Shown piece after piece: positions 4,142-64,000 of a stretch of DNA of 64,000 bases. The position numbers and the translations under genes are program-made. This DNA is from Agelas oroides (lineage: Eukaryota > Porifera > Demospongiae > Agelasida > Agelasidae). The notes beneath the pieces are model-generated. The model had not been told where the DNA came from and made no database searches. It saw only the letters and a program-made list of their open reading frames with translations. The stretch's first letter is position 1, and every line of letters begins with the position of its first letter. Location of the stretch: NCBI GenBank assembly GCA_949130485.1, contig OX422199.1, positions 3,395,402 to 3,459,401 on the forward strand, written 5' to 3'.

Positions 4142-5223
4142 CTATGTACAAACTGCACAGGTGAGTTCTTTCTGTGGATCATAAGGTGGACACAACATTC
4201 CTTTGCAGCTGGCTTCAACATGGTAAAGCAAAGCACCATCTGTATTAGAAGCACTACCTGGTACTGAGTCTGGGATTGTGTCAACACACTCATAGATGGT
4301 GTGACAATGATTATAATACCCTGACATGAGCCATGTGGATGGACACTGAGTTGTAGCTGGGATCATTGTGACTGCCACCTTTGTTGACACATAGCACACA
4401 GCACAGGGAACATTGTGCTGGCTAACAGCTCGGAGTGGTCCTCCCCGTGTGCTGTGCTCTGCTCCATACACATAGCTATACCCTTGAACTCCGGGTGTGT
4501 AGCTGAGATAGTCTGGATCATTATCCGGCATGCAGAGGTAATTGGCTGCTCCTCCCTTATGGTTCCACCACGTTCCACCAGCCCTCCCTGTATACATTAG
4601 CATGGTACCTGAGACACTTGGACAACTGCTTTTCCCCCACCGTGTGTAGACCACCACTCCAATCCTTGGTCCAGGAGGACCTGCTACTCCTTGGTCTCCT
4701 CTCTGTCCTTGTAGTCCACGGGGACCAGGCACCCCATCTCGTCCATCTCTTCCTCGCAGCACCTCAATGTAGGGGAGGGAGCTTGTGTTCACACTGTCCT
4801 CTCCACTCTGAGTGTCAGCACTTCTCTGGGACCTGTGCAGAGCTTTAGCTATAAAATGCAGTGTAGAATTACTGTAACATTGGGTTCAAAACAAAAGCAA
4901 TACATCACGCACGATCTTTCCGTAACAAGTATTTTGAGTAATTGTGCATGGCTATAACTTTACTTCCATCTTGAGAACTTATGAGCAAAATACAGTTAGT
5001 AATCTTATACTGCAGTCACTTTAGTACCACAGTCAAGGTGGTGAAGATAGTAATGTCGAACATTTTGCCATGTACCGTCTAAAGCTAATATCCACATCTG
5101 AAGGTGTACAGCCTCACTTCTGGAGTACATTTCAACACACACCCTTTACCTTCAGGCATGCAGCCCTTCTGCACACGCTGCAAGAACCAGGGCACTTGTA
5201 ATCGCCACCTTTGCCAGTTGCAT
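4142..5223 (-). pseudogene. Short-chain collagen copy 2, frameshifted
   Basis: Family member with exon 2 at 4142-4848 and exon 1 at 5150-5223. Exon 1 is 74 nt rather than 70. Four extra bases near 5156-5159 change the frame, so translation reads AEGLHA then stop before the donor. Exon 2 itself is open: ten Gly-X-Y triplets (the fewest in the array), an RGD across the GQR-GDQ boundary, and the C-terminal domain. It lacks about seven residues between CPSTW and LMS, has an extra residue in PDNDPDY, and loses the terminal lysine. Normal splicing from this exon 1 cannot give the protein. A different first exon would be required, so I call it a pseudogene. Its upstream region is cut at 5343 by unrelated sequence, removing the distal promoter block although the TATA box (5321-5328) remains. 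Confidence 0.8.
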
Positions 5224-7757: not shown

Positions 7758-8802
7758 CTACTTGGTACAAACTGCACAGGTAAGTTCTTTCTGTGGATCA
7801 TAAGGTGGGCACAGCATTCCATTGCAGCTGGCTTCAACATGGTAAAAAGAAGCACCATCTGTACTAGAAGCACTACCTGGTACTGAGTCTGGGTTCTTGT
7901 CAACACACTCATACATGGTGCGATGGAGGGTATATCCTTCTGACATGAGGTAGCCAGAGTACTCCAAAGTCCAATTTGATGGACACCGAGTTTTAGCTGG
8001 GATCATGGTGACTGCCACCCTTGTTGAAGCATAGCATACAGCACAGGGGACATTGTGCTGGTTAACAGCTCTCAGTGGCATTCCATTTGTTGCATACTCT
8101 ACTCCATACACATAGCTTGATCTTTGAACACGAGATGTGTAGCTGAGATAGTCTGGATCATCCGGCATGCACAGATAGTTGGCTGCTCCTCCCTTATGCT
8201 GCCACCACATTCCACCAGCCTTCCCTGCATACACCAGTGTGGTGCCTGAGACACTTGGACAGCTAGTTTTCCCCCACCTTGTGTACACCACCCCTCCATT
8301 TCTTGGTCCAGGGGTACCTGCTACCCCTTGATCTCCCCTCTGTCCTTGTGATCCACGAGGACCAGGCACCCCATCTCGTCCATCCCTTCCATCTCGTCCT
8401 CTTAGCACCTCAATATAAGGGAAGGAGCTTGTGTTCACACTGTTCCCTCCACTCTGACTGTCAGTACTCCTCTGGGGCCTGTGCAGAGCTCCTGCTACAG
8501 TGTGCAGTATGGTAGAAAGATTAAAACATGAGAAATTTATCAAATATCCCTGCTAGTGGAAAATACAGTGAATCATATATGGTTAAAATACTCCCCACAT
8601 AGTGAACACACAACAATTAGTTAATTGTACTGCAAACAACGTTGGTGTAGCAGACAACAGTTTGAGGAAATTGACATCAAAACTAAATTTGTTATGTCAC
8701 AATTTGAATACATTTCAACGCACAACCTTTACCTTCAGGCAGCCCTTCAGCACATGCTGCAAGGACCAAAGCACTTGCAATCACCACCTTTGCCAGTTGC
8801 AT
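7758..8802 (-). CDS. Short-chain collagen C4-like protein, copy 3
   Basis: Secreted small collagen of the extracellular matrix, 268 residues. Exon 1 (8733-8802) encodes signal peptide MQLAKVVIASALVLAACAEG. The intron is 8495-8732 (GTAAAGG...CTGTAG) and exon 2 is 7758-8494. Residues 29-32 (RPQR) fit a minimal furin site. Residues 56-88 are 11 Gly-X-Y triplets starting with three GRD, and GQR-GDQ creates an RGD at 76-78. Residues 89-268 form the C-terminal domain with ten cysteines (SC, YLC, PCAVC, RCP, YEC, SCN, LCPP, TCAVC). In known short-chain collagens this domain resembles collagen IV NC1 and is expected to drive trimerisation. The variable loop between YLMS and MYEC reads EGYTLHRT. The sequon seen in some paralogues is lost here (SVS). 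No disabling change seen. The binding partner is unknown. Confidence 0.9.
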
Positions 8803-11670: not shown

Positions 11671-11673
11671 TAC

Positions 11674-11743
11674 CTTCAGGCAGTCCTTCTGTACATGCTG
11701 CAAGGACCAAAGCACTTGCAATCACCACCTTTGCCAGTTGCAT
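11674..11743 (-). other. Orphan signal-peptide exon, intact (O2)
   Basis: A 70-nt exon identical in plan to functional first exons. It encodes MQLAKVVIASALVLAACTEG then LPE, and ends in phase 1 at a GTAAAA donor. A TATA box (TATAAAAA minus, about 11840-11847), ACGTCA and the distal block near 11925-11942 are all present. No second exon follows before copy 3's own exon 1 at 8802. It could be an alternative distal first exon for copy 3 (about 3.2 kb to its acceptor) or a leftover of a deleted gene. Confidence 0.7.
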
Positions 11744-13250: not shown

Positions 13251-13256
13251 CTCTAC

Positions 13257-13326
13257 CTTCAGGTGGCCCTTCAGCACATGCTGCAAGGACCAAAGCACTT
13301 GTAATCACCACCTTTGCCAGTTGCAT
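13257..13326 (-). other. Orphan signal-peptide exon, intact (O3)
   Basis: A 70-nt open exon encoding MQLAKVVITSALVLAACAEG then PPE, with donor GTAGAG. Its TATA position (about 13412) reads TTTAAA instead of TATAAAAA and the 5'-UTR is shortened, so promoter strength may be reduced. The distal block is present near 13485-13505. There is no matching exon 2 nearby. Confidence 0.65.
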
Positions 13327-14900: not shown

Positions 14901-15142
14901 TTTTCCATTATACCGTATACACCTGTACATACTTTAGTCTCAAGGGGTATGGCAATGGTTTAAAACCTTCCATCATGACATGAGGTATTATTATATTGGA
15001 GGTGAGCTATTATGCATGATTGTGGAGAGTAACAGATGTACGTAGGGAAATCAATTTTAGGTCTAACTTTAATACAAAGTACAACCTCACCAAACCTGTA
15101 CTAATGCCACATCTAGAGTACATTTCAACACAAAACTTTTAC
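14900..15142. repeat. Linker before orphan exon O4
   Basis: Third copy of the linker ('actttagtctcaaggggtat', 'gattgtggagagtaacagat') that precedes each orphan first exon in the 11-15 kb part. Confidence 0.55.
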
Positions 15143-15216
15143 CTTCAGGCAGCCCTTCAGCACATGCTGCAAGGACCAAAGCACTTGCAATCACCACCTA
15201 GCTTTGCCAGTTGCAT
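15143..15216 (-). pseudogene. Orphan signal-peptide exon, frameshifted (O4)
   Basis: Like O2 and O3 but 74 nt. Four extra bases (AGCT-type) near 15199-15202 shift the frame after MQLAK and give an early stop. TATA (about 15318) and the distal block (about 15413-15430) are present. No second exon is paired with it. Confidence 0.7.
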
Positions 15217-16067: not shown

Positions 16068-17083
16068 CTACTTGGTACAAACTGCACAGGTGAGTTCTTT
16101 TTGTGGATCATAAGGTGGACACAACATTCCATTGCAGTTGGCTTCAACATGGTAAAACACAGCACCGTTAGTATTAGAAGCACTGCCTGGTACTGAGTCT
16201 GGGTTTTTGTCAATACACTCATACATTGTGCGATGATGATTACGATAGTCCGACATGAGGTAGCCAGAGTACTCCAGAGTCCATGTTGATGGACACCGAG
16301 TTTTAGCAGGGATCATTGTGACTGCCACCCTTGTTGAAGCATAGCACACAGCACAGGGAACATTGTGGGCATTAACAGCTCTTAGTGGCCCTCCCCCTGT
16401 ATGATACTCTGCTCCATACACATAGTTCAATCCTTGGACTCCAGATGTGTAGCTGAGATAGTCTGGATCATCAGGCATGCAGAGGTAGTTGGCTGCTCCT
16501 CCCTTATTTGCATACCGTGTTCCACCAGCCCTCCCTGCATACACCAGTGTGGTACCTGAGACACTTGGACAACTACTTTTTCCCCACCTTGTGTAGACCA
16601 CTCCACCATTCCTTGGTCCAGGAGGACCTGCTACTCCTTGGTCTCCCCTCTGCCCTTGGTCTCCCCTCTGTCCTTGCAGTCCAAGGGGACCAGGCACGCC
16701 ATCTCGTCCATCTCTTCCATCTCGTCCTCGCAGCACCTCAATGTAAGGGAAGGAGCTTGTGTTCCCACTGTTCCCTCTACTCTGAGTGTCAGCACTCCTC
16801 TGGGGCCTGTGCAGAGCTCCTGCTACAGTGTGCAGTATAGTAGAAACAAGGGGTTCAAACCACAAGCAATGTATCGAACTACAGCTAATGAAACTAAAGT
16901 ACTTGCTCCTACACTCAGTGAGCACACAAGTAGTTAATCATACTCCAAACAACTTTAGTGTAACAATTTGAAAACATTTCACATCTGAAATGCAGTTAAT
17001 ACACACCGTTTACCTTCAGGCAGCCCTTCTGCACATGCTGCAAGGACCAAAGCACTTGCAATCACCACCTTTGCCAGTTGCAT
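16068..17083 (-). CDS. Short-chain collagen C4-like protein, copy 4
   Basis: 274 residues, predicted secreted matrix collagen. Exon 1 (17014-17083) encodes MQLAKVVIASALVLAACAEG, and exon 2 is 16068-16822 after a CTGTAG acceptor. It has 13 Gly-X-Y triplets, tied for the longest helix in the array. A tandem duplication of the GQR-GDQ pair gives two RGD tripeptides, and GPL replaces the usual GPR in one triplet. The C-terminal domain has all ten cysteines. The variable loop is DYRNHHRT. The site following AGGT reads RYANKGG, where most paralogues have an aromatic residue and histidine. A strong promoter with two Tourist-like MITEs lies upstream. Open and complete. Confidence 0.9.
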
Positions 17084-19292: not shown

Positions 19293-20100
19293 TACTTTGT
19301 ATCCCTTGTGAGCCAGCTATGGGTTAACATGAATACACTACAATTGTAGGGAGGTTTATGTATTATGTATATACAAAGCAAAGGGCATTGTTCCTATGTC
19401 AGTTCTATCTGTGGCCAAATATACACAGTCTTGTACGTGTGGCCATGTAAGGGATTTTTTGTTGATCGCATCTAACTTCTGTGTCCTACCGTATAGTCTA
19501 TCATAGTGCATATTGCAAAAAATTAGAACTGTCAACTGTCACTCAAGCGATGTACAAACAAAGCCAATGAATCAAAAAACAAGCGAACTATGCTGTCACA
19601 TACTCAGATGGTACTCGACAGCAATGTCTGCTACTCTCTTCATTTCTCAAGCTAGGTAACACAAGCAAGGCCAACAAACAGTTGCTTGTAGATGTGCAAA
19701 CGTCAAAGCCACAAACCTAAAACCTATAACCAACTGTTTGCGGAGCCTTGCTCAGCTTACCAAGATTCCCACTAGATCATATGTGTGATCATATGGATGT
19801 TGTGTACACACTATGCATAAATCAATCATCTCAGTAATCCTTTCAGTAATACATACAATGACTGCTATGTACCATTTATGGCTACTACACTACTGCTGTC
19901 AGTAGCTTATTTCCAGACCCTTGTTTGCTGTTCAACTAAATGCACACACCTGATGACAGTACTTCAATGAATGTTGTGTTCAGCTTGCTGTTTGTCAGCA
20001 ACACGTGATACTAGTCAGTAGTCTCTGTCATATAAGACATGCAGCCTTAGAAAGAATCTATATTTGAGCACAAGAATACATTTCAACACACAAATTTTAC
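19293..20100. repeat. C monomer and P module
   Basis: C monomer (AAAGGGCATTGTTCCTATGT near 19379), then the P module as far as a relict first exon. 19893 marks the start of a tandem duplication. No gene. Confidence 0.55.
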
Positions 20101-20524
20101 CTTCAGGCAGTCTTTCTGCTTAAGCTGTAATGACCAAAATACCACTTTGCCAGTTGCATTCTTGTTCTTCCTGTGTGGAATAGTTTGATATGAGACGACT
20201 TCAACTTGTGTAACTGTTAGTGCAGCAGTTATATAACCAGTTACAAACGTCAGAAATGTTCATAGTTGTATTGATGGGTGCATTGGGTGGTATGTATATA
20301 GTGTCAATGTGTCAACTTGTGACATCATATGTAGTAAACATGTACCAGTCATATTGTGGTACACATAGTTGATTCATGTCTGTAGGGTAGCTGTGTTAGA
20401 CTCCCTGGGCAGCAGATCTTCATCGATTTTAGTCCACTAAAGGTGGCACTGCTGAGAAGACTGTTCATCTTGTTTATAGCCAACACATCATGCTGCTCTA
20501 TAACCTCACACAACATGATGACTG
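19893..20524. repeat. Direct duplication, copy 1 (partner 21277-21908)
   Basis: 632 bp repeated with an offset of 1384 bp and only a few differences. It includes a relict signal-peptide exon and its TATA region. Confidence 0.8.
20101..20159 (-). pseudogene. Relict signal-peptide exon (59-nt type)
   Basis: Begins MQLAKWYFGHYSL and stops after 18 codons. An 11-nt deletion is shared with 3076-3134 and 21485-21543, so these descend from one defective ancestor. The 5'-UTR is shortened here. Confidence 0.7.
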
Positions 20525-21007
20525 TATAGTATAGTGTTTACCGTCGAACGGTCCTTTACGAGAGGTTCAGAAAGGTATGCCCACAGTGTAATACCATAGT
20601 GCATGCAATGGAGTGCAATAGGTCTATGCGTCTGAGAAAGGTATGCGCACAGTGTAATACCGTGGTGCACGTGAAGAGATCAGTTTGACTGTGGCCATGC
20701 CTTCGCATCGAAGAAAGGAAAGCATAGTGTACTGCTGTTAGGGAGCCTGAGAACGCAATGAAACGTAGAAAAGCCTTACTGTCTGAGGAAGGGTTATTAG
20801 TGGGGAAAGAGAGAGACAAAGTCCGCAAAACGAGTAAGGGAGCTTCTGAAACACGTGAGCAGACTTTGCACAGGTAAGAACAGAACCAAACACATCTGGC
20901 AAGCATGACAGCTTCTATTGTTCACAAGACAGTGATCGATTCTAGTCAACACACAAGTACAATCACATGCACTGCTGCGCCGAGGGTTTGGCACTTTAGT
21001 GCCTTTC
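20525..21007 (+). pseudogene. Inserted STPR-like repeat protein fragment
   Basis: Sequence unlike the array, interrupting the Q module. On the plus strand it reads RKVCPQCNTIVHAMECNRS, then a second RKVCAQCNTVVH copy, then DCGHAFASKK. A basic segment follows (NAMKRRKALLSEE..., KERDKVRKTSKGASETREQT). The CxxC repeats followed by R/K-rich 'ASET-EQT-HR' repeats resemble a family of transposon-linked proteins abundant in sponges and cnidarians. I recall this resemblance and could not check it. Internal stops show it is decayed. A 'caggtaag' donor-like site occurs near 20870. Confidence 0.45.
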
Positions 21008-21276: not shown

Positions 21277-21908
21277 CTGCTGTCAGTAGCTTATTTCCAG
21301 ACCCTTGTTTGCTGTTCAACTAAATGCACACACCTGATGACAGTACTTCAATGAATGTTGTGTTCAGCTTGCTGTTTGTCAGCAACACGTGATACTAGTC
21401 AGTAGTCTCTGTCATATAAGACATGCAGCCTTAGAAAGAATCTATATTTGAGCACAAGAATACATTTCAACACACAAATTTTACCTTCAGGCAGTCTTTC
21501 TGCTTAAGCTGTAATGACCAAAATACCAATTTGCCAGTTGCATTCTTGTTCTTCCTGCATCAGTGCTGTGGAATAGTTTGATATGAGACGACTTCAACTT
21601 GTGTAACTGTTAGTGCAGCAGTTTATATAACCAGTTACAAATGTCAGTAATGTTCATGGTTGTATTGATGGGTGCATTGGGTGGTATGTATATAGTGTCA
21701 ATGTGTCAACTTGTGACATCATATGTAGTAAACATGTACCAGTCATATTGTGGTACACATAGTTGATTCATGTCTGTAGGGTAGCTGTGTTAGACTCCCT
21801 GGGCAGCAGATCTTCATCGATTTTAGTCCACCAAAGGTGGCACTGCTGAGAAGACTGTTCATCTTGTTTATAACCAACACATCATGCTGCTCTATAACCT
21901 CACACAAC
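21277..21908. repeat. Direct duplication, copy 2
   Basis: Partner of 19893-20524. It holds the relict first exon 21485-21543 with the full 5'-UTR block that copy 1 lacks. Confidence 0.8.
21485..21543 (-). pseudogene. Relict signal-peptide exon (59-nt type)
   Basis: Same 59-nt defective exon as at 20101, starting MQLAK, out of frame before the donor. TTTATATAA lies upstream near 21621. Confidence 0.65.
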
Positions 21909-22364
21909 ATGATGACTGCATATGTTCATGCATAGATAATCCCATCCTGTTGCAGTGTGGAATTAATGGCATGTCTAGCTGTACATCTATACATTTCTAT
22001 GACCTTGAAGTTTTATTGTAATCTCAGTTATTATCATATGCAACATACCAAGGCAAGGTGAACTAATAATATGTTTAGCTTAGAAAATCAAAGTATCAAA
22101 ACAAAGTCTGCTCTTTTTTGCAACAAGAAGCACAAGCATATTCAGACTACCAATTCAGAGAGCTTTCTAGCTTCCATGTTAACTTGCATTTTGTTATAGA
22201 AGTTATAAGCCCCTGAGTGTACCTGGCAGTATAGTTGGAATGGGCTCAATTGTATCAAGTATCTTGTATGAAAAAAAGCATGATAAACAGCTAGTTCACT
22301 CAGCATTGGCAAGTACATAATATTGCCTCAAAATGTGTTAATTCCCAAAAGTAATGTCTTCTAG
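21909..22364. repeat. Q module and 3' flank of copy 5
   Basis: Matches 50340-50831 closely ('gaagcacaagcatattcaga', 'cattggcaagtacataatat'). No gene. Confidence 0.5.
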
Positions 22365-23387
22365 CTACTTGGTACAAACTGCACAGGTGAGTTCTTTCTG
22401 TGGATCATAAGGTGGACACAGCATTCCATTGCAGCTGGCTTCAACATGGTAAAACAAAGCACCATTAGTACCAGAAGCACTGCCTGGCAATGAGTCTGGG
22501 TTCTTGTCAACACACTCATACATGGTGCGGACATTCCATCTTCTTTCTGACATGAGGTAGCCAGAGTATTCCAGAGTCCATGTTGATGGACACTGAGTTT
22601 TAGCTGGGATCATTGTGACTGCAACCCTTGTTGAAGCATAGCAAACGGCACAGGGGACATTGTGGTTGTTAGCAGCTCGGAGTGGTCCTCCCCCTGTATG
22701 ATACTCTGCTCCATACACATAGCTATACCCTTGAACTCCAGGTTGGTAGATGAGATAGTCTGGATCATCAGGCATACAGAGGTAGTTGGCTGCTCCTCCC
22801 TTATGTGCATACCATGTTCCACCAGCCCTTCCTGCATAAACCAGTGTTGTGCCTGTGACATTCGGACAGGTATTTTCCCCCCACCTCGTGTAGACCACCC
22901 CACCATTCCTTGGTCCAGGGGGACCTGCTACTCCTTGGTCTCCCTTCTGCCCTTGGTGTCCACTCTGTCCTTGTGGTCCACGGGGACCAGGCACCCCATC
23001 TCGACCATCCCTTCCATCTCGTCCGCGCAACACCTCAATGTAGGGGAAGGAGCTTGTGTTCACACTGTTCCCTCCACTCTGAGTGTCAGCACTCCTCTGG
23101 GGCCTGTGCAGAGCCCCTGCTACAGTGTGCAGGATAGTTGAAACATTAAAAACATAAGCAATGCATCAAATATCACAGCTAGTTAAAATAGAGTACTTAT
23201 CATTACACATAATGAGCACAAAACAGTTAATCCATCATACTGCAAACAATTTTAGTATGCAAACAACAGTTTGAAGAGATTTCACGTCTTGAATACATTT
23301 CAACACACACCCTTTACCTTCAGGCAGCCCTTCTCCACATGCTGCAAGGACCAAAGCACTTGCAACCACCACCTTTGCCAGTTGCAT
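22365..23387 (-). CDS. Short-chain collagen C4-like protein, copy 5
   Basis: 274 residues. Exon 1 (23318-23387) encodes MQLAKVVVASALVLAACGEG, and exon 2 is 22365-23119. It has 13 Gly-X-Y triplets, but the extra pair differs from copy 4: GQS-GHQ precedes GQK-GDQ, so the helix was lengthened independently, with KGD in place of RGD. The first cysteine lies in ENTCPNVTGT, which carries an N-glycosylation sequon. The C-terminal domain is complete, the variable loop is ERRWNVRT, and LPGSAS replaces VPGSAS. The promoter with MITE M3 is complete. It is extracellular by its signal peptide, with no membrane segment. Confidence 0.9.
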
Positions 23388-25070: not shown

Positions 25071-25548
25071 ATATATACACTCAAACAATGTACAAGCCAG
25101 GCCAATCAATCAAAAAACAAGCGAACTATGCTGTCACATACTCAGATGGTACTCGACAGCAACGTCTGCTACTCTCTTCATTTCTCAAGCTAGGCAACAC
25201 AAGCAAGACCCAACAAACAGTTGCTTGTAGATGTGCAAACTTCAAAGCCACAAACCTAAAACCTATAACCAACTGTTTGCGGAGCCTTGCTCAGCTTACC
25301 AAGATTCCCACTAGATCATATGTGTGATCATATGGATGTTGTGTACACAATGTGTCAACTTGTGACATCATATGTAGTAAACATGTACCAGTCATATTGT
25401 GGTACACATGATAGTTTATTCATGTCTGTAGGGCAGCTGTGTTAGACCCCCTGGGCGGCAGATCTTCGTCGATTTTTGGTCACTGAAGGTGGCACTGCTG
25501 AGAAGACTGTTCAGCTTGTTTATAACCAACATACATCATGCTGCTGTA
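25070..25548. repeat. P and Q module pieces joined
   Basis: The P module breaks off at about 25348 and jumps into the Q module at TGTCAACTTGTGACATCAT. The relict first exon and its promoter are missing, indicating a deletion between repeats. Confidence 0.5.
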
Positions 25549-25917
25549 TACTCCAGAGTCCATGTTGATGGACATTGAGTTTTAGCTGGGATCATTGTGA
25601 CTGCCACCCTTGTTGAAGCGTAGCACACAGCACAGGGAACATTGTGCTGGGTAACAGCTCTCAGTGGTCCTCCCCCTGTCTTGTACTCTGCTCCATACAC
25701 ATAGTTCTGCCCTTGAACTCCAGGTTGGTAGCTGAGGTAGTCTGGATGATCAGGCATGCAGAGGTGGTTGGCTGCTCCTCCTTTATGTGTAAACCATGTT
25801 CCACCAGCTCTTCCTGCATACACCAGTGTGGTGCCTGAGACACTTGGACAACTACTTTTCCCCCACCTTGTGTAGACCACCCCACCATTCCTTGGTCCAG
25901 GAAGACCTGCTACTCCT
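25549..25917 (-). pseudogene. Short-chain collagen exon-2 fragment, copy 6
   Basis: Internal piece of exon 2 from the end of the Gly-X-Y part (GRPGPRNGG) to TWTLEY. It lacks the GRD triplets, exon 1, the promoter and the C-terminal third with its last five cysteines. At its 3' side it joins the Q module at 'tgtatactcc'. At its 5' side it joins the interior of a Tourist-like MITE at 25917-25919 (shared CCT). The surviving sequence is open, and it is closest to copy 11 (PDHPDYLSYQPGVQG, KTGGGPLRAVTQHN), which implies recent origin by deletion. Confidence 0.85.
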
Positions 25918-25918
25918 A

Positions 25919-25937
25919 ATCCTAGTGTAAATGGGGC
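25919..25937. mobile_element. Right-end stump of Tourist-like MITE (M7)
   Basis: Only the terminal 19 bp (AATCCTAGTGTAAATGGGGC-type) remain, fused to the collagen fragment. Confidence 0.6.
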
Positions 25938-30440: not shown

Positions 30441-30495
30441 TTCAGGCAGTCCTTCTGCTCATGCTGCAAGGACCAAAATATTATGTACCATTCAT
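30440..30495 (-). pseudogene. Relict signal-peptide exon
   Basis: Only the donor side is well kept (CCTGAAGGTAAAAG at about 30434-30447 in minus orientation). The MQLAK start is destroyed. The left border of the 2.9-kb segmental duplication (30450) falls inside it. Confidence 0.55.
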
Positions 30496-31462
30496 TCTTG
30501 TTATTCCTGTACCATTACTGTAGATTAGTTTGATATGAGACAACTTCACCTTGTGTACGTAACTGTCAGTGCAGCAATTTACATAACCAGTTAAAAACGT
30601 CAGTCATATTCATAGTTGTATTGATGGGTGCATTGGGTGGTATGTATATGGTGTCAATGTGTCAACTTGTGACATCATATGTAGTAAACATGTACCAGTC
30701 ATATTGTGGTACACATGATAGTTCATTGAACCCCTTGGGCAGCAGATCTTTGTTCAGTTTATGGCCACTGAAGGTGGCACTTCTGAGAAGGCTGTTCATC
30801 TTGCTTATAACCATCACATCATGCTGCTCAATAGCCTCATACAAGATGATGAATGTATATATTCATACATAGATAATCCCACCCTATCCTGTTGCAGTGT
30901 GGAACTAATGCATGTCTAACTGTACGTCTATACATTTCTATGACGAAGTCTTGTGTTCACCGTGATAACAGTTATTGTCATATGTATGCAACATACCAAA
31001 CATATAGGCAAGGTGAACAATATAGACACTGCAAAGCTTGTACTGGCTCATGTATTGTCATTTCCTCCTTCATTTTGTGTACAAACTGGGCAGATATATT
31101 CTAGTTCTCATCCCAGCTGGGAGTGAATATGTCAAAGATGCTATTCTTTCAACATCTGTTTATCAAAACAAAATCTGCTCATTTTTGTTCACTAGCAACA
31201 TGGGAGACTTCTGCTGAAGCACAAGCATATTTAGACTACCAGTTAGAGAGCTTTCTAGCTTCCATGCTAACTTGTTATAGAAGTTATATGCCCCTGAGTG
31301 TACCTGGCAGTATAGTGTGTTTTATATTGGAATATGCTCAAATATGTCAGGCATCTTGTATAAAAAAAGCATGATCAGTTCACCCCAGCATTGGCAAGTA
31401 CATACTATTGCATCAAAATTACACTCAATATTATAGTAGATGTGTAAAGTAATGTCTTCTAG

Positions 31463-32477
31463 CTACTTGGTACAAACTGCACAGGTAAGTTCTTTCTGTG
31501 GATCATAAGGTGGGCACAGCATTCCATTGCAGCTGGCTTCAACATGGTATAACAAAGCACCATTAGTATTAGAAGCACTGCCTGGCACTGAGTCTGGGTT
31601 CTTGTCAACACATTCATACATGATGCGATAATGTGTCCCTCCAATATATTCTGACATGAGGTAGCCGGAGTACTCCAAAGTCCATGTTGACGGACACTGA
31701 GTTTTAGCTGGGATCATTGTGACTGTCACCCTTGTTGAAGCATAGCACACGGCACAGGGGACATTGTGCTGGTTAACAGCTGAGAGTGGTCCTCCCCCTG
31801 TCTCATACTCTGCTCCATACACATAGCTGTACCCTTGAACTCCAGATTGGTAGCTGAGATAGTCTGGATCATCAGGCATGCAGAGGTAGTTGGCTGCTCC
31901 TCCTTTATGTTGATACCACGTTCCACCAACCCTCCCTGCATACACCAATGTGGTGCCTGAGACATTTGGACATCTACTTTTCCCCCACCTCGTGTAGACT
32001 ACTCCACCATTTCTTGGTCCAGGGGGACCTGCTACTCCTAGGTCTCCTTTCTGCCCCTGTGGTCCACGGGGACCAGGCACCCCATCTCGTCCATCTCTTC
32101 CATCTCGTCCTTGCAGCACCTCAAAGTAGGGGAAGGAGCTTGTGTTTACACTGTTCCCTCCACTCTGATTGTCAGTACTTCTCTGGGGCCTGTGCAGAGC
32201 TCCAGCTACAGTGTGCAGTATAGTAGAAAGATTAAAACACAAGAAATGCATCAAATATCCCTGCTAGTGGAAATAGAGTACCTAGCATATTATAAAATAG
32301 AGAGCACACAACCGTTTGTTAATTGTACTGCGTACAATGTTTGTTATAGCACACAACAGTTTGAGGAAATTCACATCTGAACTACCTTTCAACACATAGC
32401 TTTTTACCTTCAGGAAGCCCTTTTACACATACTGCAAGAACCAAAATACTTGCAATCACCACCTTTGCCAGTTGCAT
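31463..32477 (-). CDS. Short-chain collagen C4-like protein, copy 7
   Basis: 270 residues. Exon 1 (32408-32477) encodes MQLAKVVIASILVLAVCVKG, an unusual signal peptide with lysine replacing the usual glutamate near the cleavage region. Exon 2 is 31463-32205. It has 11 Gly-X-Y triplets (LQGRD start, GQK-GDL, so KGD), an RSTDNQS linker after the RPQR site, an NVS sequon at the first cysteine and a complete ten-cysteine C-terminal domain. The variable loop is EYIGGTHYRI, two residues longer than in copies 3-5. The gene lies in a 2.9-kb duplicated unit whose partner, copy 9, differs almost only in this loop. All splice signals and TATA are intact. Confidence 0.9.
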
Positions 32478-32499
32478 TCTTGTTATTCCTGCACCAGTG

Positions 32500-32697
32500 C
32501 TGTGGAATAGTTTGATATGAGACAACTGCAACTTGTGCAACTGTCAGAATGTCAGTCAACAACAAGTGTAGAGATTTTTATAGCCATTTGAAGCTACGTC
32601 ATATAAAATTTTGAGCTGTTAATTAATATTCATAAGTTGTATTGTGGCACATGAACAGTGGTTGGTGTTCTGTCAATGTGTCAACTGGTGACATCAT
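32500..32697 (-). promoter_or_regulatory. Promoter of collagen copy 7
   Basis: TATAAAAA at 32575-32582, ACGTCA at 32596-32601, and distal block TGTCAACTGGTGACATCAT ending near 32697. Confidence 0.65.
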
Positions 32698-32710
32698 AAC
32701 ACAATCATAA

Positions 32711-32884
32711 GCCCTGTTTACACTAGCACTTATACTGGTTTCAAATCGGTTTACATTAAACTAGTTTTATCAAACCACATCCATTATGTGGATTACAGAA
32801 AGACGTTTCCAAAACGCATACACCTGCCCTAAACCGCTTTGAAACCGATTTGAAACCAGTTTAAAATCCTAGTGTAAATGGGGC
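32711..32884. mobile_element. Tourist/Harbinger-like MITE, copy M4
   Basis: 174 bp with inverted ends. TAA on the left, TAT on the right. One GATTTGAAACC unit is changed to GCTTTGAAACC. Confidence 0.7.
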
Positions 32885-33445
32885 TATAGTGATAGTGGAT
32901 CCATTGTGAACATTCTTGTAGTAAGAATTGATGTGGTGTGATGACCCCAGTGCTGTTACTGTGTTATGTTGACCTGAACCAACAGTTCAGTCATTACTGG
33001 TACATGCATAGCTGCATTACCACTCTAAGCAGCAGATGTTTGCTGTTGGTCTGTGAAAGTGTTTTACATCTCACAATACTTTTCATAAGGCCATTCAGCT
33101 TGTTGTTCATTGACAACACATCATGCTGCAGTGTAGTTTCACATGGCGTAAAGACTGAAGGGTCAGCATTCCTCAGGGACGTGGGTATGAGACTAATGGA
33201 GAAGCTAGAGGGGGAGATAAGTCAAGTCTGTAGTCTCAATCTTGTGTGATACTCCTTTTTTCTCTTGCCTGCAGTACCTTGAAGTAGTTGTTCATATACT
33301 AGTATGAACATAGCTTGTTTGGTTTATTAACTTCGTGATATGTAGTGAAAAACCAAATAGCCATACCAGTGTGAACACATATTGCGTATGTGAATTAAAG
33401 ATGTCGAATAAGTGTGTTTGTCAGAGTGTCAATATATGGTTACTC
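32885..33445. other. Upstream (U) module
   Basis: Third well-kept U module. It carries the relict exon-2 start and the pyrimidine tract ending CCTGCAG near 33272. No gene. Confidence 0.5.
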
Positions 33446-39522: not shown

Positions 39523-40551
39523 CTACTTGGTACAGACAGCACAAGTGAGTTCTTTCTGTGGATCATAAGGTGGACACAGCATTCCATTGCAGCTGGCTTC
39601 AACATGGTAAAACGAAGCACCGTTAGTACTAGAAGCACCACCTGGTACTGAGTCTGGGTTTTTGTCAATACATTCATACATGGTGCGATGATGGTTAGTA
39701 TTATGTTCAGACATGAGGTAGCCGGAGTACTCCAGAGTCCATGTTGACGGACACTGAGTTTTAGCTGGGATCATTGTGACTGTCACCCTTGTTGAAGCAT
39801 AGCACACTGCACAGGGGACATTGTGCTGGTTAACAGCTGAGAGTGGTCCTCCCCCTGTCTCATGTGTCTCATACTCTGCTCCATACACGTAGCTGTACCC
39901 TTGAACTCCAGATTTGTAGCTGAGATAGTCTGGATAATCAGGCATGCAGAGGTAGTTGGCTGCTCCTCCCTTGTGTGCATACCACGTTCCACCAGCCCTC
40001 CCTGCATACACCAGTGTGGTACCTGAGACATTTGGACATCTACTTTTCCCCCACCTTGTGTAGACTACTCCACCATTCCTTGGTCCAGGGGGACCTGCTA
40101 CTCCTTGGTGTCCCCTCTGCCCTTGCAGTCCACGGGGACCAGGCACCCCATCTCGTCCATCTCTTCCATCTCGTCCTCGCAGGACCTCAATGTAGGGGAG
40201 GGAGCTTGTGTTTACACTGTTCCCTCCACTCTGAGTGTCAGCACTCCTCTGGGGCCTGTGCAGAGCTTTAGCCATAAAATTCAGTATAGTTGAAAGATTA
40301 AAATGCAAGCAATGTATCAAATATTTTCTGCTAGTGAAAATAGAATACTTGCCCTTACAATTAGTTAATTGTACTGCAAACAACTTTAGTATAGCAGACA
40401 ACAGTTTGTCTGCTTTAGTATAGCAGACAACAGTTTGAGGAAATTGACATCAAAACCACATTTTCAACACACACACTTTACCTTCAGGCAGCCCTTCTGC
40501 ACATACTGCAAGGACCAAAGCACTTGCAATCACCACCTTTGCCAGTTGCAT
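39523..40551 (-). CDS. Short-chain collagen C4-like protein, copy 8
   Basis: 270 residues if spliced to the downstream acceptor. Exon 1 (40482-40551) encodes MQLAKVVIASALVLAVCAEG. The usual acceptor TATAG is changed to TATGG (40272-40273), but an AG six bases further (AAAG, exon 2 from 40265) keeps the frame, giving LPEALHRPQRS instead of LPEAKALHRPQRS. Exon 2 has 11 triplets (GQR-GHQ, so neither RGD nor KGD), an NVS sequon and ten cysteines. A 9-bp tandem duplication gives ETHETGGG in the segment after VYGAEY. The variable loop is EHNTNHHRT. The 5'-UTR is shortened next to the ATG. GGAS replaces GSAS near the end. Confidence 0.85.
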
Positions 40552-43470: not shown

Positions 43471-44459
43471 ATGTCTTTACTTGAGTTGGGACTGGTAATC
43501 TTCGTGGGGGACAGAGGGCATTATCACTTTTATGAGAAGTCATGGATTGCTTGCACAAAGCAAAAACTGTGTTCGGTGAGTAAATAAAAAAAAATAGTAT
43601 AGGAGACATGGATTGATTACTATATATGTATGATACTAGATGTGGGATACTGATGGTAGAGAGGCCGAGAAATGATGTGACTGATGGGAAGAGCTGGAAA
43701 TGTCCTCAATGCAAAACTAGAAACAGTATTCGGGAAGGAAGTTTTTTTTCCAAGTCGAGGATGTCCCTTCAGAAGTGGCTGTTGATCATCTATCTTTGGG
43801 CAAGAGATTACCCAGTAACTGATGCTGCTCAGGAAGTGGAGATCACTAAAACATCTGCAATTGATGTAAGGAGCATGCACAACGAAGCTCCTCCAAAACC
43901 AAATCATTCTTGGGGGTCCTGGGACAATTGTGCAAATTGATGAATCCCTTTTTCGTCACAAACCAAAGGTATGTCATTTGAAGTGTAACATATTAACAAG
44001 ATGTTTGACTGCACGCTCTGCTTACAGAACCACAGAGGAAAGGCAACATCTCAGGAAGTGTGGGTGTTTGGGATGGTTGACACCTCACACCATCCAGCAC
44101 TAGGTTACATGGAGATTGTGCAACACAGAGATGCTGCCACACTTCTTCCCATCATTCAAGTCCACACTGCTCCTGGGACAATCGTCCACTCAGATGAATG
44201 GGCAGCCTACAACAGAGTCCCTACTGTTGCTTCACATGGGGTCGTAAATCACTCTGTGATGTTCGTCAACCCAACAACGGGAGTCCATACTCAACATGTT
44301 GAGTCCTACTGGGGGAGAATTAAGAAAAAGTTAAAGAGGATGAAAGGATGCCATGCTCACCAGCTACCCTCCTATTTAGGAGTTTATGTGGCAAGAACGT
44401 CATGGAACAACAGCACGCCAAGCATTTAACAACATTATAGCTGATATAGCACAACAGTA
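43471..44459 (+). mobile_element. Merlin DNA transposon (ISXO2-like transposase), truncated
   Basis: Three coding blocks. Exon a (43471-43579) MSLLELGLVIFVGDRGHYHF..., ending at a GTGAGT donor. Exon b (about 43630-43970) with the zinc-binding pair WKCPQCKTRNSIREGSFF, the helix WLLIIYLWARDYP, and the first catalytic Asp in GTIVQIDESLF. A clean intron, 43971-44028 (GTATGT...TTACAG). Exon c (44029 on) with EVWVFGMVD, VHSDEW (second Asp) and QHVESYWGRIKKKL (Glu). A frame change precedes GTIVQIDES, where about 20 residues also seem to be missing. One extra G near 44380 shifts LPSYLG away from EFMWQERHGTTARQAFNNII. The element stops at 44459, exactly where the duplicated collagen unit starts. Not functional. 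Confidence 0.8.
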
Positions 44460-45472
44460 TCCTTCTGCTCATGCTGCAAGGACCAAAATATTATGTACCA
44501 TTCATTCTTGTTATTCCTGTACCATTACTGTAGATTAGTTTGATATGAGACAACTTCACCTTGTGTACGTAACTGTCAGTGCAGCAATTTACATAACCAG
44601 TTAAAAACGTCAGTCATATTCATAGTTGTATTGATGGGTGCATTGGGTGGTATGTATATGGTGTCAATGTGTCAACTTGTGACATCATATGTAGTAAACA
44701 TGTACCAGTCATATTGTGGTACACATGATAGTTCATTGAACCCCTTGGGCAGCAGATCTTTGTTCAGTTTATGGCCACTGAAGGTGGCACTTCTGAGAAG
44801 GCTGTTCATCTTGCTTATAACCATCACATCATGCTGCTCAATAGCCTCATACAAGATGATGAATGTATATATTCATACATAGATAATCCCACCCTATCCT
44901 GTTGCAGTGTGGAACTAATGCATGTCTAACTGTACGTCTATACATTTCTATGACGAAGTCTTGTGTTCACCGTGATAACAGTTATTGTCATATGTATGCA
45001 ACATACCAAACATATAGGCAAGGTGAACAATATAGACACTGCAAAGCTTGTACTGGCTCACGTATTGTCATTTCCTCCTTCATTTTGTGTACAAACTGGG
45101 CAGATATATTCTAGTTCTCATCCCAGCTGGGAGTGAATATGTCAAAGATGCTATTCTTTCAACATCTGTTTATCAAAACAAAATCTGCTCATTTTTGTTC
45201 ACTAGCAACATGGGAGACTTCTGCTGAAGCACAAGCATATTTAGACTACCAGTTAGAGAGCTTTCTAGCTTCCATGCTAACTTGTTATAGAAGTTACATG
45301 CCCCTGAGTGTACCTGGCAGTATAGTGTGTTTTATATTGGAATATGCTCAAATATGTCAGGCATCTTGTATAAAAAAAGCATGATCAGTTCACCCCAGCA
45401 TTGGCAAGTACATACTATTGCATCAAAATTACACTCAATATTATAGTAGATGTGTAAAGTAATGTCTTCTAG

Positions 45473-46487
45473 CTACTTAGTACAAACTGCACAGGTAAGT
45501 TCTTTCTGTGGATCATAAGCTGGGCACAGCATTCCATTGCAGCTGGCTTCAACATGGTATAACAAAGCACCATTAGTATTAGAAGCACTGCCTGGCACTG
45601 AGTCTGGGTTCTTGTCAACACATTCATACATGATGCGATGATGGTCATTCCGCTTTCCTTCTGACATGAGGTAGCCGGAGTACTCCAAAGTCCATGTTGA
45701 CGGACACTGAGTTTTAGCTGGGATCATTGTGACTGTCACCCTTGTTGAAGCATAGCACACGGCACAGGGGACATTGTGCTGGTTAACAGCTGAGAGTGGT
45801 CCTCCCCCTGTCTCATACTCTGCTCCATACACATAGCTGTACCCTTGAACTCCAGATTGGTAGCTGAGATAGTCTGGATCATCAGGCATGCAGAGGTAGT
45901 TGGCTGCTCCTCCTTCATGTTGATACCACGTTCCACCAACCCTCCCTGCATACACCAATGTGGTGCCTGAGACATTTGGACATCTACTTTTCCCCCACCT
46001 CGTGTAGACTACTCCACCATTTCTTGGTCCAGGGGGACCTGCTACTCCTAGGTCTCCTTTCTGCCCCTGTGGTCCACGGGGACCAGGCACCCCATCTCGT
46101 CCATCTCTTCCATCTCGTCCTTGCAGCACCTCAAAGTAGGGGAAGGAGCTTGTGTTTACACTGTTCCCTCCACTCTGATTGTCAGTACTTCTCTGGGGCC
46201 TGTGCAGAGCTCCAGCTACAGTGTGCAGTATAGTAGAAAGATTAAAACACAAGAAATGCATCAAATATCCCTGCTAGTGGAAATAGAGTACCTAGCATAT
46301 TATAAAATAGAGAGCACACAACCGTTTGTTAATTGTACTGCGTACAATGTTTGTTATAGCACACAACAGTTTGAGGAAATTCACATCTGAACTACCTTTC
46401 AACACATAGCTTTTTACCTTCAGGAAGCCCTTTTACACATACTGCAAGAACCAAAATACTTGCAATCACCACCTTTGCCAGTTGCAT
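45473..46487 (-). CDS. Short-chain collagen C4-like protein, copy 9
   Basis: 270 residues. Exon 1 (46418-46487) is identical to that of copy 7 (MQLAKVVIASILVLAVCVKG). Exon 2 is 45473-46215. Outside one loop it differs from copy 7 by only two amino acids I can see: E for K in HEGGAANYLC and A for P in LCPAYDPQ. Its stop-proximal codon change is silent. The loop between YLMS and MYEC is EGKRNDHHRI instead of EYIGGTHYRI, from 14 substitutions in 19 bp (45640-45658) with no length change. The A-for-P change hits a position conserved in all other copies. The gene is complete with TATA and MITE. Confidence 0.9.
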
Positions 46488-46509
46488 TCTTGTTATTCCT
46501 GCACCAGTG

Positions 46510-46708
46510 CTGTGGAATAGTTCGATATGAGACAACTGCAACTTGTGCAACTGTCAGAATGTCAGTCAACAACAAGTGTAGAGATTTTTATAGCCATTTG
46601 AAGCTACGTCATATAAAATTTTGAGCTGTTAATTAATATTCATAAGTTGTATTGTGGCACATGAACAGTGGTTGGTGGTAGTGTCAATGTGTCAACTGGT
46701 GACATCAT
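46510..46708 (-). promoter_or_regulatory. Promoter of collagen copy 9
   Basis: TATAAAAA at 46585-46592. Same as copy 7 except that GTTCTGTC before the distal block reads GTAGTGTC, one base longer. This variant resembles copy 4 and suggests a short conversion. Confidence 0.6.
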
Positions 46709-46721
46709 AACACAATCATAA

Positions 46722-46895
46722 GCCCTGTTTACACTAGCACTTATACTGGTTTCAAATCGGTTTACATTAAACTAGTTTTATCAAACCACATCCATTATGT
46801 GGATTACAGAAAGACGTTTCCAAAACGCATACACCTGCCGTAAGCCGCTTTGAAACCGATTTGAAACCAGTTTAAAATCCTAGTGTAAATGGGGC
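46722..46895. mobile_element. Tourist/Harbinger-like MITE, copy M5
   Basis: Duplicate of M4 carried along with the 2.9-kb unit. Two or three substitutions. Confidence 0.7.
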
Positions 46896-47470
46896 TATAG
46901 TGATAGTGGATCCATTGTGAACATTCTTGTAGTAAGAATTGATGTGGTGTGATGACCCCAGTGCTGTTACTGTGTTATGTTGACCTGAACCAACAGTTCA
47001 GTCATTACTGGTACATGCATAGCTGCATTACCACTCTAAGCAGCAGATGTTTGCTGTTGGTCTGTGAAAGTGTTTTACATCTCACAATACTTTTCATAAG
47101 GCCATTCAGCTTGTTGTTCATTGACAACACATCATGCTGCAGTGTAGTTTCACATGGCGTAAAGACTGAAGGGTCAGCATTCCTCAGGGACGTGGGTATG
47201 AGACTAATGGAGAAGCTAGAGGGGGAGATAAGTCAAATCTGTAGTCTCAATCTTGTGTGATACTCCTTTTTTCTCTTGCCTGCAGTACCTTGAAGTAGTT
47301 GTTCATATACTAGTATGAACATAGCTTGTTTGGTTTATTAACCTCATGATATGTATATAGTGAAACACCAAATAGCCAAGCCAGTGTGAACACATATTGC
47401 ATATGTGAAAATTAAAGATGTCGAATAAGTGTGTTTGTCAGAGTGTCAATAAAATATAAGCATTGTATGG
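46896..47470. other. Upstream (U) module
   Basis: As 32885-33445 up to about 47341, then switching to the 24240-type sequence. No gene. Confidence 0.5.
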
Positions 47471-50831: not shown

Positions 50832-51833
50832 CTACTTGGTACAAACTGCACAGGTGAGTTCTTTCTGTGGATCATAAGGTGGGCACAGCATTCCATTGCA
50901 GTTGGCTTCAACATGGTAAAACAAAGCACCATTAGTACTAGAAGCACTGCCTGGCACTGAGTCTGGGTTCTTGTCAACACACTCATACATGGTGCGATGA
51001 TGATAATAATACTCTGACAAGAGGTAGCCAGAGTACTCCAGAGTCCATGTTGGTGGACATTGAGTTTTAGCTGGGATCATTATGACTGCCACCCTTGTTG
51101 AAGCGTAGCACACAGCACAGGGAACATTGTGCTGGGTAACAGCTCTCAGTGGTCCTCCCCCTGTCTTGTACTCTGCTCCATACACATTGCTGTGCCCTTG
51201 AACTCCAGGTTGGTAGCTGAGGTAGTCTGGATGATCAGGCATACAAAGGTAGTTGGCTGCTCCTCCTTTATGGGAATAATATGTTCCACCAGCCCTCCCT
51301 GCATACACCAGTGTGGTGCCTGAGACACTTGGACAGCTACTTTTCCCCCACCTTGTGTAGACCACTCCACCATTCCTTGGTCCAGGAAGACCTGCTACTC
51401 CTTTGTCTCCTTTCTGTCCTTGAGGTCCATGGGGACCAGGCACCCCATCTCGACCATCTCTTCCATCTCGTCCTCGCAGCACCTCAATGTTGGGGAAGGA
51501 GCTTGTGTTCACACTGTTCCCTCTACTCTGAGTGTCAGCATTCCTCTGGGGCCTGTGCAGAGCTTTAGCTACAGTATGCATTATAGTTGAAAGATTGGGT
51601 TAAAAACACAAACAATACATCAAACTAGTTAAAATGGAGTACTTATCATTACACATAATGAGCACAAAACAGTTAGTTAATCATACTGCAAACAATGTTA
51701 GTATGCAGACAATAGTTTGAAGAATTATTACGTGTTGAATACATTTCATCGCACGCACTTTACCTTCAGGTAGTCCTTCTGCACATACTGCAAGGAGCAA
51801 AATACTTGTAATCACGACCTTTGCCAGTTGCAT
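50832..51833 (-). CDS. Short-chain collagen C4-like protein, copy 11
   Basis: 268 residues. Exon 1 (51764-51833) encodes MQLAKVVITSILLLAVCAEG, and exon 2 is 50832-51568 after CTGTAG. It has 11 triplets including GPH-GPQ and GQK-GDK (KGD), and GLP in place of GPP. The first cysteine lies in SSCPSVSGT (no sequon). It has PDHPDYLSYQPGVQG and a complete ten-cysteine domain. The variable loop is EYYYHHRT, and LLS replaces LMS just before it. The RPQR site is kept (RPQRN). Copy 6 and the 121-bp fragment at 50051 are its closest relatives in the window. Promoter TATA is present, but the sequence upstream of it is diverged. Confidence 0.9.
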
Positions 51834-55496: not shown

Positions 55497-56554
55497 CTAT
55501 TTGGTACAAACAGCACAGGTAAGTTCTTTCTGTGGATCATAAGGTGGGCACAGCATTCCATTGCAGTTGGCTTCAACATGGTAAAACAAAGCACCATTAG
55601 CATCTGAAGCACTGCCTGGCACTGAGTCTGGGTTCTTGTCAACACACTCATACATGGTGCGATAGTGATCATTCCACTTTCGTGATGCTGACATGAGGTA
55701 GCCGGAGTACTCCAGAGTCCATGTTGGTGGACACTGAGTTTTAGCTGGGATCATTGTGACTGCCACCCTTGTTGAAGCATAGCACACGGCACAGGGGGCA
55801 TTGTGGTTATGAACAGCTCGAAGTGACCCTTGATTTGATTCATACTCTACTCCATACACAAAGTTGTACCCTTGAACTCCAGGTTGGTAGCTGAGATAGT
55901 CTGGATCATCAGGCATGCAGAGGTAGTTGGCTGCTCCTCCCTTATGTTGATACCATGTTCCACCAGCCCTCCCTGCATACACCAGTGTGGTACCTGAGAC
56001 ACTTGGACACCTTTTTTCCCCCCACCTAGTGTAGACCACCCCACCATTCCTTGGTCCAGGGGGACCTGCTACTCCTTGGTCTCCCTTCTGTCCTTGCAGT
56101 CCACGAGGACCAGGCACCCCATCTCGTCCATCTCTTCCATCTCGTCCTCGCAGCACCTCAATGTAGGGGAAGGAGCTTGTGTTTACACTGTTCCCTCTAC
56201 TCTGAGTGTCAGCACTCCTCTGGGACCTGTCCAGAGCTCCAGCTACAGTGCGCATATAGTTGAATTTAAAGATTAAAACACGAGAAATTTATCAAATATC
56301 CCTGCTAGTGGAAAATACAGTGAATCATATATGGTTAAAATACTCCCCACATAGTGAGCACACAACAATTAGTTAATCGAATTGCAAACAACTTTGGTGT
56401 AGCAGACAACAGTTTGAGGAAATTGACATCAAAACTAAATTTGTTATGTCACAATTTGAATACATTTCAACGCACAACCTTTACCTTCAGGCAGCCCTTC
56501 AGCACATACTGCAAGGAGCAAAACACTTGCAATCACCACCTTTGCCAGTTGCAT
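55497..56554 (-). CDS. Short-chain collagen C4-like protein, copy 12
   Basis: 271 residues. Exon 1 (56485-56554) encodes MQLAKVVIASVLLLAVCAEG, and exon 2 is 55497-56242. The site before the helix is RSQR within ALDRSQRSAD, so RxxR is kept although the flanking residues changed. It has 11 triplets (GQK-GDQ, KGD). The first cysteine lies in EKRCPSVSGT. It differs most from its relatives in the middle of the C-terminal domain: NFVYGVEYESNQGSL replaces VYGAEY-GGGPL, and HNHNAPC replaces QHNVPC. The variable loop, ASRKWNDHYRT, is the longest in the array. Ten cysteines, complete, with a canonical promoter. Confidence 0.9.
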
Positions 56555-61455: not shown

Positions 61456-64000
61456 CTCAGTTATTATCAACATGGCAAAGAGGCACGGTGGATTCATACT
61501 TAGCTAAGAAAATTCATAATCTGAAACACATCTTCCATCTTCCATGAAATAAACACTGCCGAACTTGTACATACGTATATTGTCAAACACTTCATTAGGT
61601 GTACAAACTGGGAAGATATATTCTAGTTCTCATGCCAGCTATGAGTGAATAAGCAAACGACACTATTCTATTGATCTCTATCCTTCATAGTACCAATAAA
61701 AGTCTGCTTGTTTCCTTTCCATTTGCAACAGCATTGTGAAGGACCTAGAGGAACACTTGAAATTTCAATGTCCAGTCCCTGATTTCCCTATTGTGTCTAA
61801 CATAGTGCACAAACTTGGTGGTATCCAACTGCACTATCCAATCGACTTCAGGCTTGGAGGAATTGAGTGTCTCTCTTATATTGCTAACCAGTCATTTCTA
61901 TAGATGTGGCAACAAATGCATTAGGCTCAACAGTAGCGGGATTCAGACCCTTTTCAGGATGAGAGACATAGGTATGTGAATCCTCAACAACATGCTTAGC
62001 TTCAGGAGTTAGCTACTGCATGAGCTGATGTCTGATATTCTTTGAAAGATGTTCAACTTCAGAAGTTACTGTCTGTATAGACTGCTTGGTAAATTCAACA
62101 TTTTGAGTTGCTATGAATGGAGCCTAGAAGGGGACCAACTTCCTCTGCTGGTTGTTCAAGTTATAGCCCACCTTTGATCATAATGCCTTGTATTGCTAAC
62201 TGACCTCCACACCAATTGCACTAGCATACTTCTGGCACTCTCCATGAGAGCTGGACTCCTCAAAGCAAGCCTTAGGCAGGGAGTGGTTCCATCCTTGCTG
62301 TAGTAGGCCACAAGTCGGGATTTTAAAGGGATCGAAACCCACGGTCATTTTATGATCGGAAAGGGTACTCCCCTGAACATAACAGCATACAAACTACAAT
62401 GTGAATAAGTGGGCATACTTTCAAGAGAAAAGGACCCTTTGCAATAACTTGTGATTGGAAAAGGAATGGGCTTATTTTTGGGAGACGACAACATGAATCA
62501 TTTCTAGTACTGTGTAGGGAAGCCAATACTGTTGTCAGGAGCAAACAATTTTTTCACTGCTGTTCATCACTAAAGGTGTTATACACCCCAAATGGAAAGA
62601 AAAAGGATGAGGGATGAAAGGCCATAAGAGTGCATGTATATACCTAGTATTTTAATGTTTCTCACCCAGCCTGAGAGAACTTAGATATTAATAGTTGGAA
62701 GCAGTTATCATTAAAGTATCCACGGTGCAAGTGCTAAGGTTGATAGCTAATCCACAGCAACCGCACGGGGCCAAACATATATATTTGCCATTAATGGGTG
62801 GGACCTAAGGTCACACAGGATTTTTACAGTGGCCGAAGTAACTATCTTAACATGAAGGTAATTGTATTTCATGAATTTGAGAATATATGATTTTTTTAAA
62901 CCACTCCTAACCAGAGTTATGACCAAAAGTGTTGATACTTCAGTGACCACACATGCATTATCCCAACTTGCAGCTCTGGAGCCTTGTGTAAAGCCTAAGG
63001 TAGGCCGGTACACTGTCATCAAACTATAGCTACTAACTACAAGTTTCTGATAGCGAACTAGGTATGTTAGCTGGAAATATCAACTGATTGACTGACTGTT
63101 TAAACTGAGTGAGCACAGACACACACTGACACTTCAGTCTCATTCACAAACAAGTCTGGGAATGAGACCACTTCACTGCGGTACCGGTCACGTGACCGTC
63201 CATGTAGCTGTTGTTGCTGTGAGGTCATAACTATTGAACTGGGATATGTCCATGCTTCAGGATTGATGCGTATGCATGTGTGTATATGGGACCTTGTGTG
63301 TTGTACTATCTACAACATATGTAGATATAGTGCTACCTATGGGGCTGTCAGCAGAAAGCTTTAGCAATTACCAATCGTTAATATAGTTACGTGCAAATAC
63401 ATAAGTAAATATATATGCAGAGAGGCTAATGCCATTAGTTAGCACAATCTTTGTTGTCTGATGATGGTGCCTTCATTTGAAGATAAAAGCATGATAAAAA
63501 ACAGTTCAAAGCACTCAACATTGACATCTACATTATTGCCACTCAACATCCGCATGTATTAATTATAATTTGCACTGCGTACTGGGGTAATATCTTCTAT
63601 TTGGTACAAACAGCATGGTAAAATTCTATATTGGCATGCAAACATATCAGTTACTAATTTTGATGAACAAAAATTCAGGTTGACTCTCAACATTGGTATG
63701 CATGCTCACATTATTTTGTCCAAGTTACACTCAACATTAATGCTTTCAATTTACAAATTAATGCCCTCTACTTGGTACAGACAGCACAAGTGAGTTCTTT
63801 CTGTGGATCATAAGGTGGACACAGCATTCCATTGCAGCTGGCTTCAACATGGTAAAACGAAGCACCGTTAGTGCTAGAAGCACTGCCTGGTACTGAGTCT
63901 GGGTTCTTGTCAACACACTCATACATGGTGCGATGATGGTTAGTATTATGTTCAGACATGAGGTAGCCGGAGTACTCCAGAGTCCATGTTGACGGACACT
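61455..64000. repeat. Segmental duplication, copy 2 (runs off window)
   Basis: Partner of about 37290-40160. It includes the unknown 61733-61905 frame, the 62403-62505 repeat and the 3' part of another collagen gene. Confidence 0.85.
63768..64000 (-). CDS. Short-chain collagen C4-like protein, copy 13 (partial, right edge)
   Basis: C-terminal 77 or so residues of exon 2, open to the window edge: CPSTWTLEYSGYLMS, loop EHNTNHHRT (identical to copy 8), MYECVDKNPDSVPGSAS, and the last five cysteines to CAVCTK. It is the duplicate of copy 8, with V for I in YECVD and GSAS for GGAS. Exon 1, the helix and the promoter lie beyond the window. Confidence 0.9.
   Translation of the reverse strand, partial: CPSTWTLEYSGYLMSEHNTNHHRTMYECVDKNPDSVPGSASSTNGASFYHVEASCNGMLCPPYDPQKELTCAVCTK

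Follow-up and report, generated by a model that had tools for sequence, protein, structure and literature searches.

Why do two copies of a collagen gene that are otherwise almost identical differ nearly everywhere across one stretch of 19 bp? The question is raised by a 64-kb window (the whole stretch of DNA analyzed here), which carries, on the minus strand, approx. 12 genes and pseudogenes for spongin-type short-chain collagens ("short-chain collagen C4") in tandem array; the array continues beyond position 64000. The two copies concerned, c7 and c9 (see Table 1), each have an intact gene model of two exons for a 270-aa protein, in which a signal peptide and a linker are followed by approx. 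12 Gly-X-Y triplets and then by a C-terminal domain rich in cysteines. Collagens of the spongin type are found in sponges, in cnidarians and in further invertebrates (PMC5395295), and the spongin short-chain collagens (short-chain collagen C4; Aouacheria et al. 2006) are described, in the excerpted text of that paper, as having seven cysteines in common with collagen IV, three specific cysteines and no HSQ motif. The array encodes secreted proteins with a short collagenous stretch and a C-terminal NC1-like domain, and ten cysteines (12, 42, 84, 87, 104, 132, 159, 164, 175, 178) are invariant in nine copies, a count equal to the published seven plus three; HSQ is absent from the domain. The family is thus matched by description; Pfam and PDB sequence searches with the C-terminal domain found no significant homologue and no Pfam C4 match, and no relatives were found in viral and bacterial/archaeal collections.

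Table 1. Positions in the 64-kb window of the array members and of the features discussed (5' and 3' refer to the coding strand)
Feature	Position	Strand	Remarks
c1 C-terminal exon	215-733	-	
c1 break	288-304	-	Exon homology stops within the loop, followed by array intergenic sequence
c2 C-terminal exon	4145-4753	-	21-bp deletion directly 5' of the c2 loop
c3 C-terminal exon	7761-8369	-	
c4 C-terminal exon	16071-16682	-	
c5 C-terminal exon	22368-22994	-	
c6 C-terminal exon	25545-25919	-	Fragment
c6 exon fragment	25549-25917	-	3' break at 23 bp from where the loop block lies
Near-identical unit with c7	30450-33330	-	99.6% identity to 44460-47341 outside the block
c7 exon 1	32408-32477	-	Signal peptide MQLAKVVIASILVLAVCVKGLPE, GT donor
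c7 exon 2	31463-32205	-	Linker, short Gly-X-Y stretch, spongin-type NC1 domain, stop
c7 C-terminal exon	31466-32110	-	
c7 variable loop 1	31904-31918	-	WYQHK (W30-K34); corresponds to the rewritten loop in the internal repeat alignment
c7 block, 19 bp	31630-31648	-	Encodes YIGGTHY, C-terminal domain residues Y120 to Y126
Recombination breakpoint, c7/c9 body	31609-31613	-	c8-like on the 5' side, c10-like on the 3' side (MaxChi)
c8 C-terminal exon	39526-40146	-	
c8 loop	39685-39708	-	Identical to the c12 loop (63930-63953)
Near-identical unit with c9	44460-47341	-	Base-by-base alignment
c9 exon 1	46418-46487	-	Signal peptide
c9 exon 2	45473-46215	-	
c9 C-terminal exon	45476-46120	-	
c9 block	45640-45658	-	GKRNDHH; homologue of the c11 loop
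c10 C-terminal exon	50835-51443	-	
c11 C-terminal exon	55500-56117	-	
c11 loop	55664-55682	-	Within the window, the loop most closely related to that of c9
c12 C-terminal exon	63771-64000	-	Truncated by the window end

The array also holds orphan copies of the signal-peptide exon on the minus strand (11672-11743, 13255-13326 and 15141-15197); no C-terminal exon is recognisable from 8.4 to 16.0 kb, and these copies may be decayed genes or genes with a different second exon. Another recent duplication (19893-20528 and 21277-21922; 97.4% identity across 646 bp) involves DNA outside the coding exons. On its left side, the c9 unit borders non-array DNA with an IS1595/ISXO2-like transposase domain (43989-44429; Pfam E 1e-18), which adjoins the unit's left end at 44460.

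Base-by-base alignment of the c7 and c9 units identified 26 differing columns, 14 of which fall, with no gap, in the 19-bp block. Outside the block, the units differ by 11 substitutions and one 1-base indel across 2.86 kb (approx. 0.4%), in agreement with the roughly ten scattered differences reported in an initial annotation of this DNA. Such clustering has a scan expectation of approx. 8 × 10-22 (binomial; P = 4 × 10-27 for the block as compared to the rest, Fisher's exact test), and the mismatch within the block (74%) compares to 75% expected for unrelated DNA. The cluster coincides, as the initial annotation had also proposed, with the loop codons following YLMS-E in exon 2 of both copies (EYIGGTHYRI in c7 and EGKRNDHHRI in c9; loop DNA GGAAAGCGGAATGACCATC and TATATTGGAGGGACACATT). 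Synonymous sites are affected as well, with 2.5 of 4.7 changed in the loop, as compared to a pS of 0.009 elsewhere in the domain. As these synonymous sites were rewritten, a block of DNA was replaced, and selection on single amino acid changes alone is insufficient to account for the difference; the annotation's rejection of drift is thus borne out. A simple duplicated haplotype block was considered as an origin of the two units and rejected, since c8 sits between c7 and c9 and the distance from c7 to c8 (8066) is not that from c9 to c10 (5353).

The hypervariability at which this two-unit comparison merely hinted holds across the whole family. Among 36 copy pairs, the loop was the most divergent 24-nt window in 25; eight of the 11 exceptions include c2, in which the deletion beside the loop dominates, and with c2 omitted the loop was the most divergent stretch in 25 of 28 pairs. 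Mean pN and pS over the 36 pairs were 0.46 and 0.67 for loop codons and 0.073 and 0.21 for the rest of the domain. The high nonsynonymous divergence is what would be expected if point substitution had been accelerated in the loop, by hypermutation or by successive episodes of positive selection; however, synonymous divergence is equally raised, the changes span more than one base type, and the c8 and c12 loops are the same at a unit divergence of 4.1%, so that we regard this explanation as extremely unlikely. Point hypermutation as such was rejected on account of the rewritten synonymous sites together with the unchanged c8/c12 loop, which argues against a constantly hypermutating loop and indicates that replacement is episodic and not continuous. 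A diversity-generating retroelement fits poorly, as the changes are not confined to adenines (5 of the 14 differences have no adenine on either side, coding strand). In a tblastn scan of the window, no non-coding loop template came up. There is hence no need for a special targeted mutator of the kind that the initial annotation had offered as an alternative.

Two further observations concern c8. All six coding differences between c8 (39628-39673) and c12 (63873-63918) lie within 46 bp, directly 3' (coding) of the identical loop, and c8 has the ECID variant in common with c4; this cluster may represent a further short tract of conversion adjoining the loop. In addition, c8 (39865-40164) carries an in-frame 9-bp insertion, ATGAGACAC, which extends a further variable part of the domain by the residues ETH.

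Where the replaced block came from was addressed by comparing loops across the window. The c9 loop is a homologue of the c11 loop: 14 of 16 aligned bases are identical, both differences are transitions, and none of 500 shuffles scored equally, whereas the alignment of the c7 and c9 loops is no better than that of shuffled DNA (P = 0.49). Outside the block, by contrast, c7 and c9 are 99.6% identical to each other and 86-95% identical to c11. The loop is thus inherited separately from the gene body. The proposal that a third paralogue had converted one of the loops gains from this homology and from the replacement of the block, but c11 itself was not the direct donor, given 5 mismatches in 19 positions in register and a 3-bp difference in length. 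Neither 19-mer has a same-strand match with fewer than 5 mismatches elsewhere in the 64-kb window, the best matches being c11 for the c9 block (5 mismatches) and a chance 4-mismatch site on the opposite strand for the c7 block. Because the c7 and c9 bodies differ by only approx. 0.4%, a recent direct donor should be near-identical, and would therefore lie outside the window or be an allele. A further suggestion of the initial annotation, that the end of the loop resembles that of its copy 3, proved unspecific, as several copies (c4, c8 and c10) have the HHR ending.

Loop lengths differ among copies by multiples of three, and indels therefore do happen at the loop, as would be required if one copy had been rewritten de novo by a complex mutation, whether through compensating indels or by a template switch to nearby DNA. 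A k-mer search for a template-switch source of either loop gave nothing convincing, only isolated 11-12-mers with none nearby and none spanning the block, and c11 carries a true homologue of the c9 loop; we consider such an origin highly improbable. It is also very unlikely that the assembly or its polishing drew the loop of one copy from another allele or from a paralogue. Near-identical repetitive units are the classic setting for misassembly, but each loop is in frame, has a plausible length for the family and is flanked by copy-specific differences, and since all other copies are equally hypervariable, mosaic loops are nothing unusual in this family.

The gene bodies themselves carry a record of exchange next to the loop. 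To the 5' side of the loop (coding strand), the c7/c9 body is nearest to c8 (3/168 differences, as compared to 17/168 for c10), while on the 3' side it is nearest to c10 (5/159, as compared to 14/156 for c8). A MaxChi test that omitted the loop columns placed the breakpoint at the informative sites just past the loop (0 of 1000 permutations). Both c7 and c9 are thus mosaics with discordant relationships across a breakpoint beside the loop. The breaks of decayed copies (c1, c6 and c2) also cluster at the loop, a pattern that was spotted post hoc and is only suggestive. Furthermore, the RI codon that follows the loop, 3 bp from the block, is exclusive to c7 and c9, since RT or HT is present in all the other intact copies. 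The exchange boundary should therefore lie within approx. 3 bp on that side, and a tract from a donor of the common RT type must end within the 3 bp between block and RI codon, unless the donor has RI, as an allele would.

Overall, these data make it highly probable that loops move between genes as blocks, whatever the order of events, and the best reading is conversion from a paralogue or allele. Under this reading, c7 and c9 belong to a tandem array of genes for secreted spongin-type short-chain collagens and would have been duplicated or homogenised recently. The hypervariable hairpin of one of them would then have been swapped as a whole through gene conversion, ectopic or interallelic, with a tract visible over at least 19 bp and a donor that is another member or an allele outside the window. 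Mosaic islands arising from gene conversion have precedent in the excerpted text of PMC3728101. The near-identical flanks on either side of the hairpin could serve as homology arms, so that only the non-homologous loop would show as a change, and selection for differing loops may then retain such exchanges. We favor this specific order, duplication or homogenisation first and loop conversion in one copy second, by a modest degree, as an unconverted island would give almost the same pattern.

That main rival holds that c7 and c9 are older paralogues with distinct loops and that one or more 2.9-kb conversions homogenised the rest, skipping the loop or failing to fix it, either because strongly heterologous DNA was repaired separately or because selection held the loops different. 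No outside donor is then necessary, and the c9 loop need not be a recent arrival, its divergence from the c11 loop (approx. 12-19%) being similar to the background between c9 and c11. The near-identity of the units also stops abruptly at approx. 33330, as would be seen where a conversion tract ends; upstream of that point, homologous flanks that are approx. 94% identical, with indels, as for any two array members, extend to approx. 34073. However, unequal crossing-over also predicts a sharp boundary, and as the low divergence is equal on both sides of the block, the homogenising event must have skipped approx. 19 bp at no more than 3 bp from a codon found only in c7 and c9. We therefore hold an unconverted island to be possible but rather doubtful.

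What the loop might do was approached through the domain that carries it. This domain is an internal two-fold repeat (better than 100 of 100 column shuffles), in which the W30-K34 hairpin and the rewritten loop (residues 119-126) occupy equivalent positions; c7 and c9 differ in the former by K/E at 31906 (T/C). Comparison with a sequence verified as collagen alpha-1(IV) NC1 gave an hhalign P of 0.0011 across 32 columns, with the second half of the domain, and not the first, scoring better than 60 of 60 shuffles. Direct hhalign mapping of loop 1 to collagen IV failed, and loop 1 is thus placed by the internal repeat only. Like collagen IV NC1, the domain appears to consist of two internal subdomains, and it has a CP-x-x-W...GY motif directly ahead of the hairpin (CPSTWTLEYSGY / CPSGWSSLWIGY). 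By this weak homology, the rewritten loop may correspond to the SM1' hairpin that lines the trimer core (beta3'-beta4', residues 144-154). In the excerpted account of PMC6211539, that hairpin points into the central tunnel and is of key importance in determining whether protomers form. The alignment makes a role in the choice of trimer partner plausible, with the loop as a contact hairpin of a trimeric NC1-like head; recognition of a ligand by a head on a collagen stalk is no less plausible. AlphaFold models of nine sequences from the window (pLDDT 36, pTM 0.25) were set aside as evidence. A bolder and unlikely proposal is that both hairpins, WYQHK and the rewritten loop, together act as a specificity code made of interchangeable cassettes, which are exchanged by conversion and would specify mainly trimers of a protein's own kind or its own ligand; if true, the array would represent diversified soluble collagen-stalked recognition molecules in an invertebrate.

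The locus represents a true and well-bounded exchange of loops in a tandem collagen array, by a class of mechanism that is already known, and the c7/c9 pair offers a testable case of a small divergent island retained within homogenised genes. Array members that differ mostly in one hairpin, itself moved between genes as a block, resemble a recognition or assembly-specificity system. Recognition genes, including those of the MHC and of variable antigens, are diversified by short conversion tracts, and the array similarly reshuffles short blocks in putative contact loops among otherwise similar copies; unlike these systems, it is a germline array without sign of somatic or programmed switching, and its recognition role is putative. 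The GOT1 paralogues of Tigriopus show a comparable mosaic of near-identical and highly divergent sequence, in which conversion both homogenises and moves divergent segments (PMC3728101, as excerpted), whereas the c7/c9 island measures 19 bp and lies in the variable hairpin of a family arrayed in approx. 12 copies. In collagen IV, the hairpin region is not described as a hypervariable array trait in the excerpted text of PMC6211539. The accessible portions of the literature treat spongin short-chain collagens as structural matrix proteins, and no report of a hypervariable, exchangeable hairpin in them was found in the portions under open licence. The genes described here have in common with these collagens a signal peptide, a short Gly-X-Y stretch, an NC1-like domain, ten cysteines and the absence of HSQ, and depart from the family, as it is described in those portions, in forming a dense tandem array with one hypervariable hairpin that is swapped among copies.
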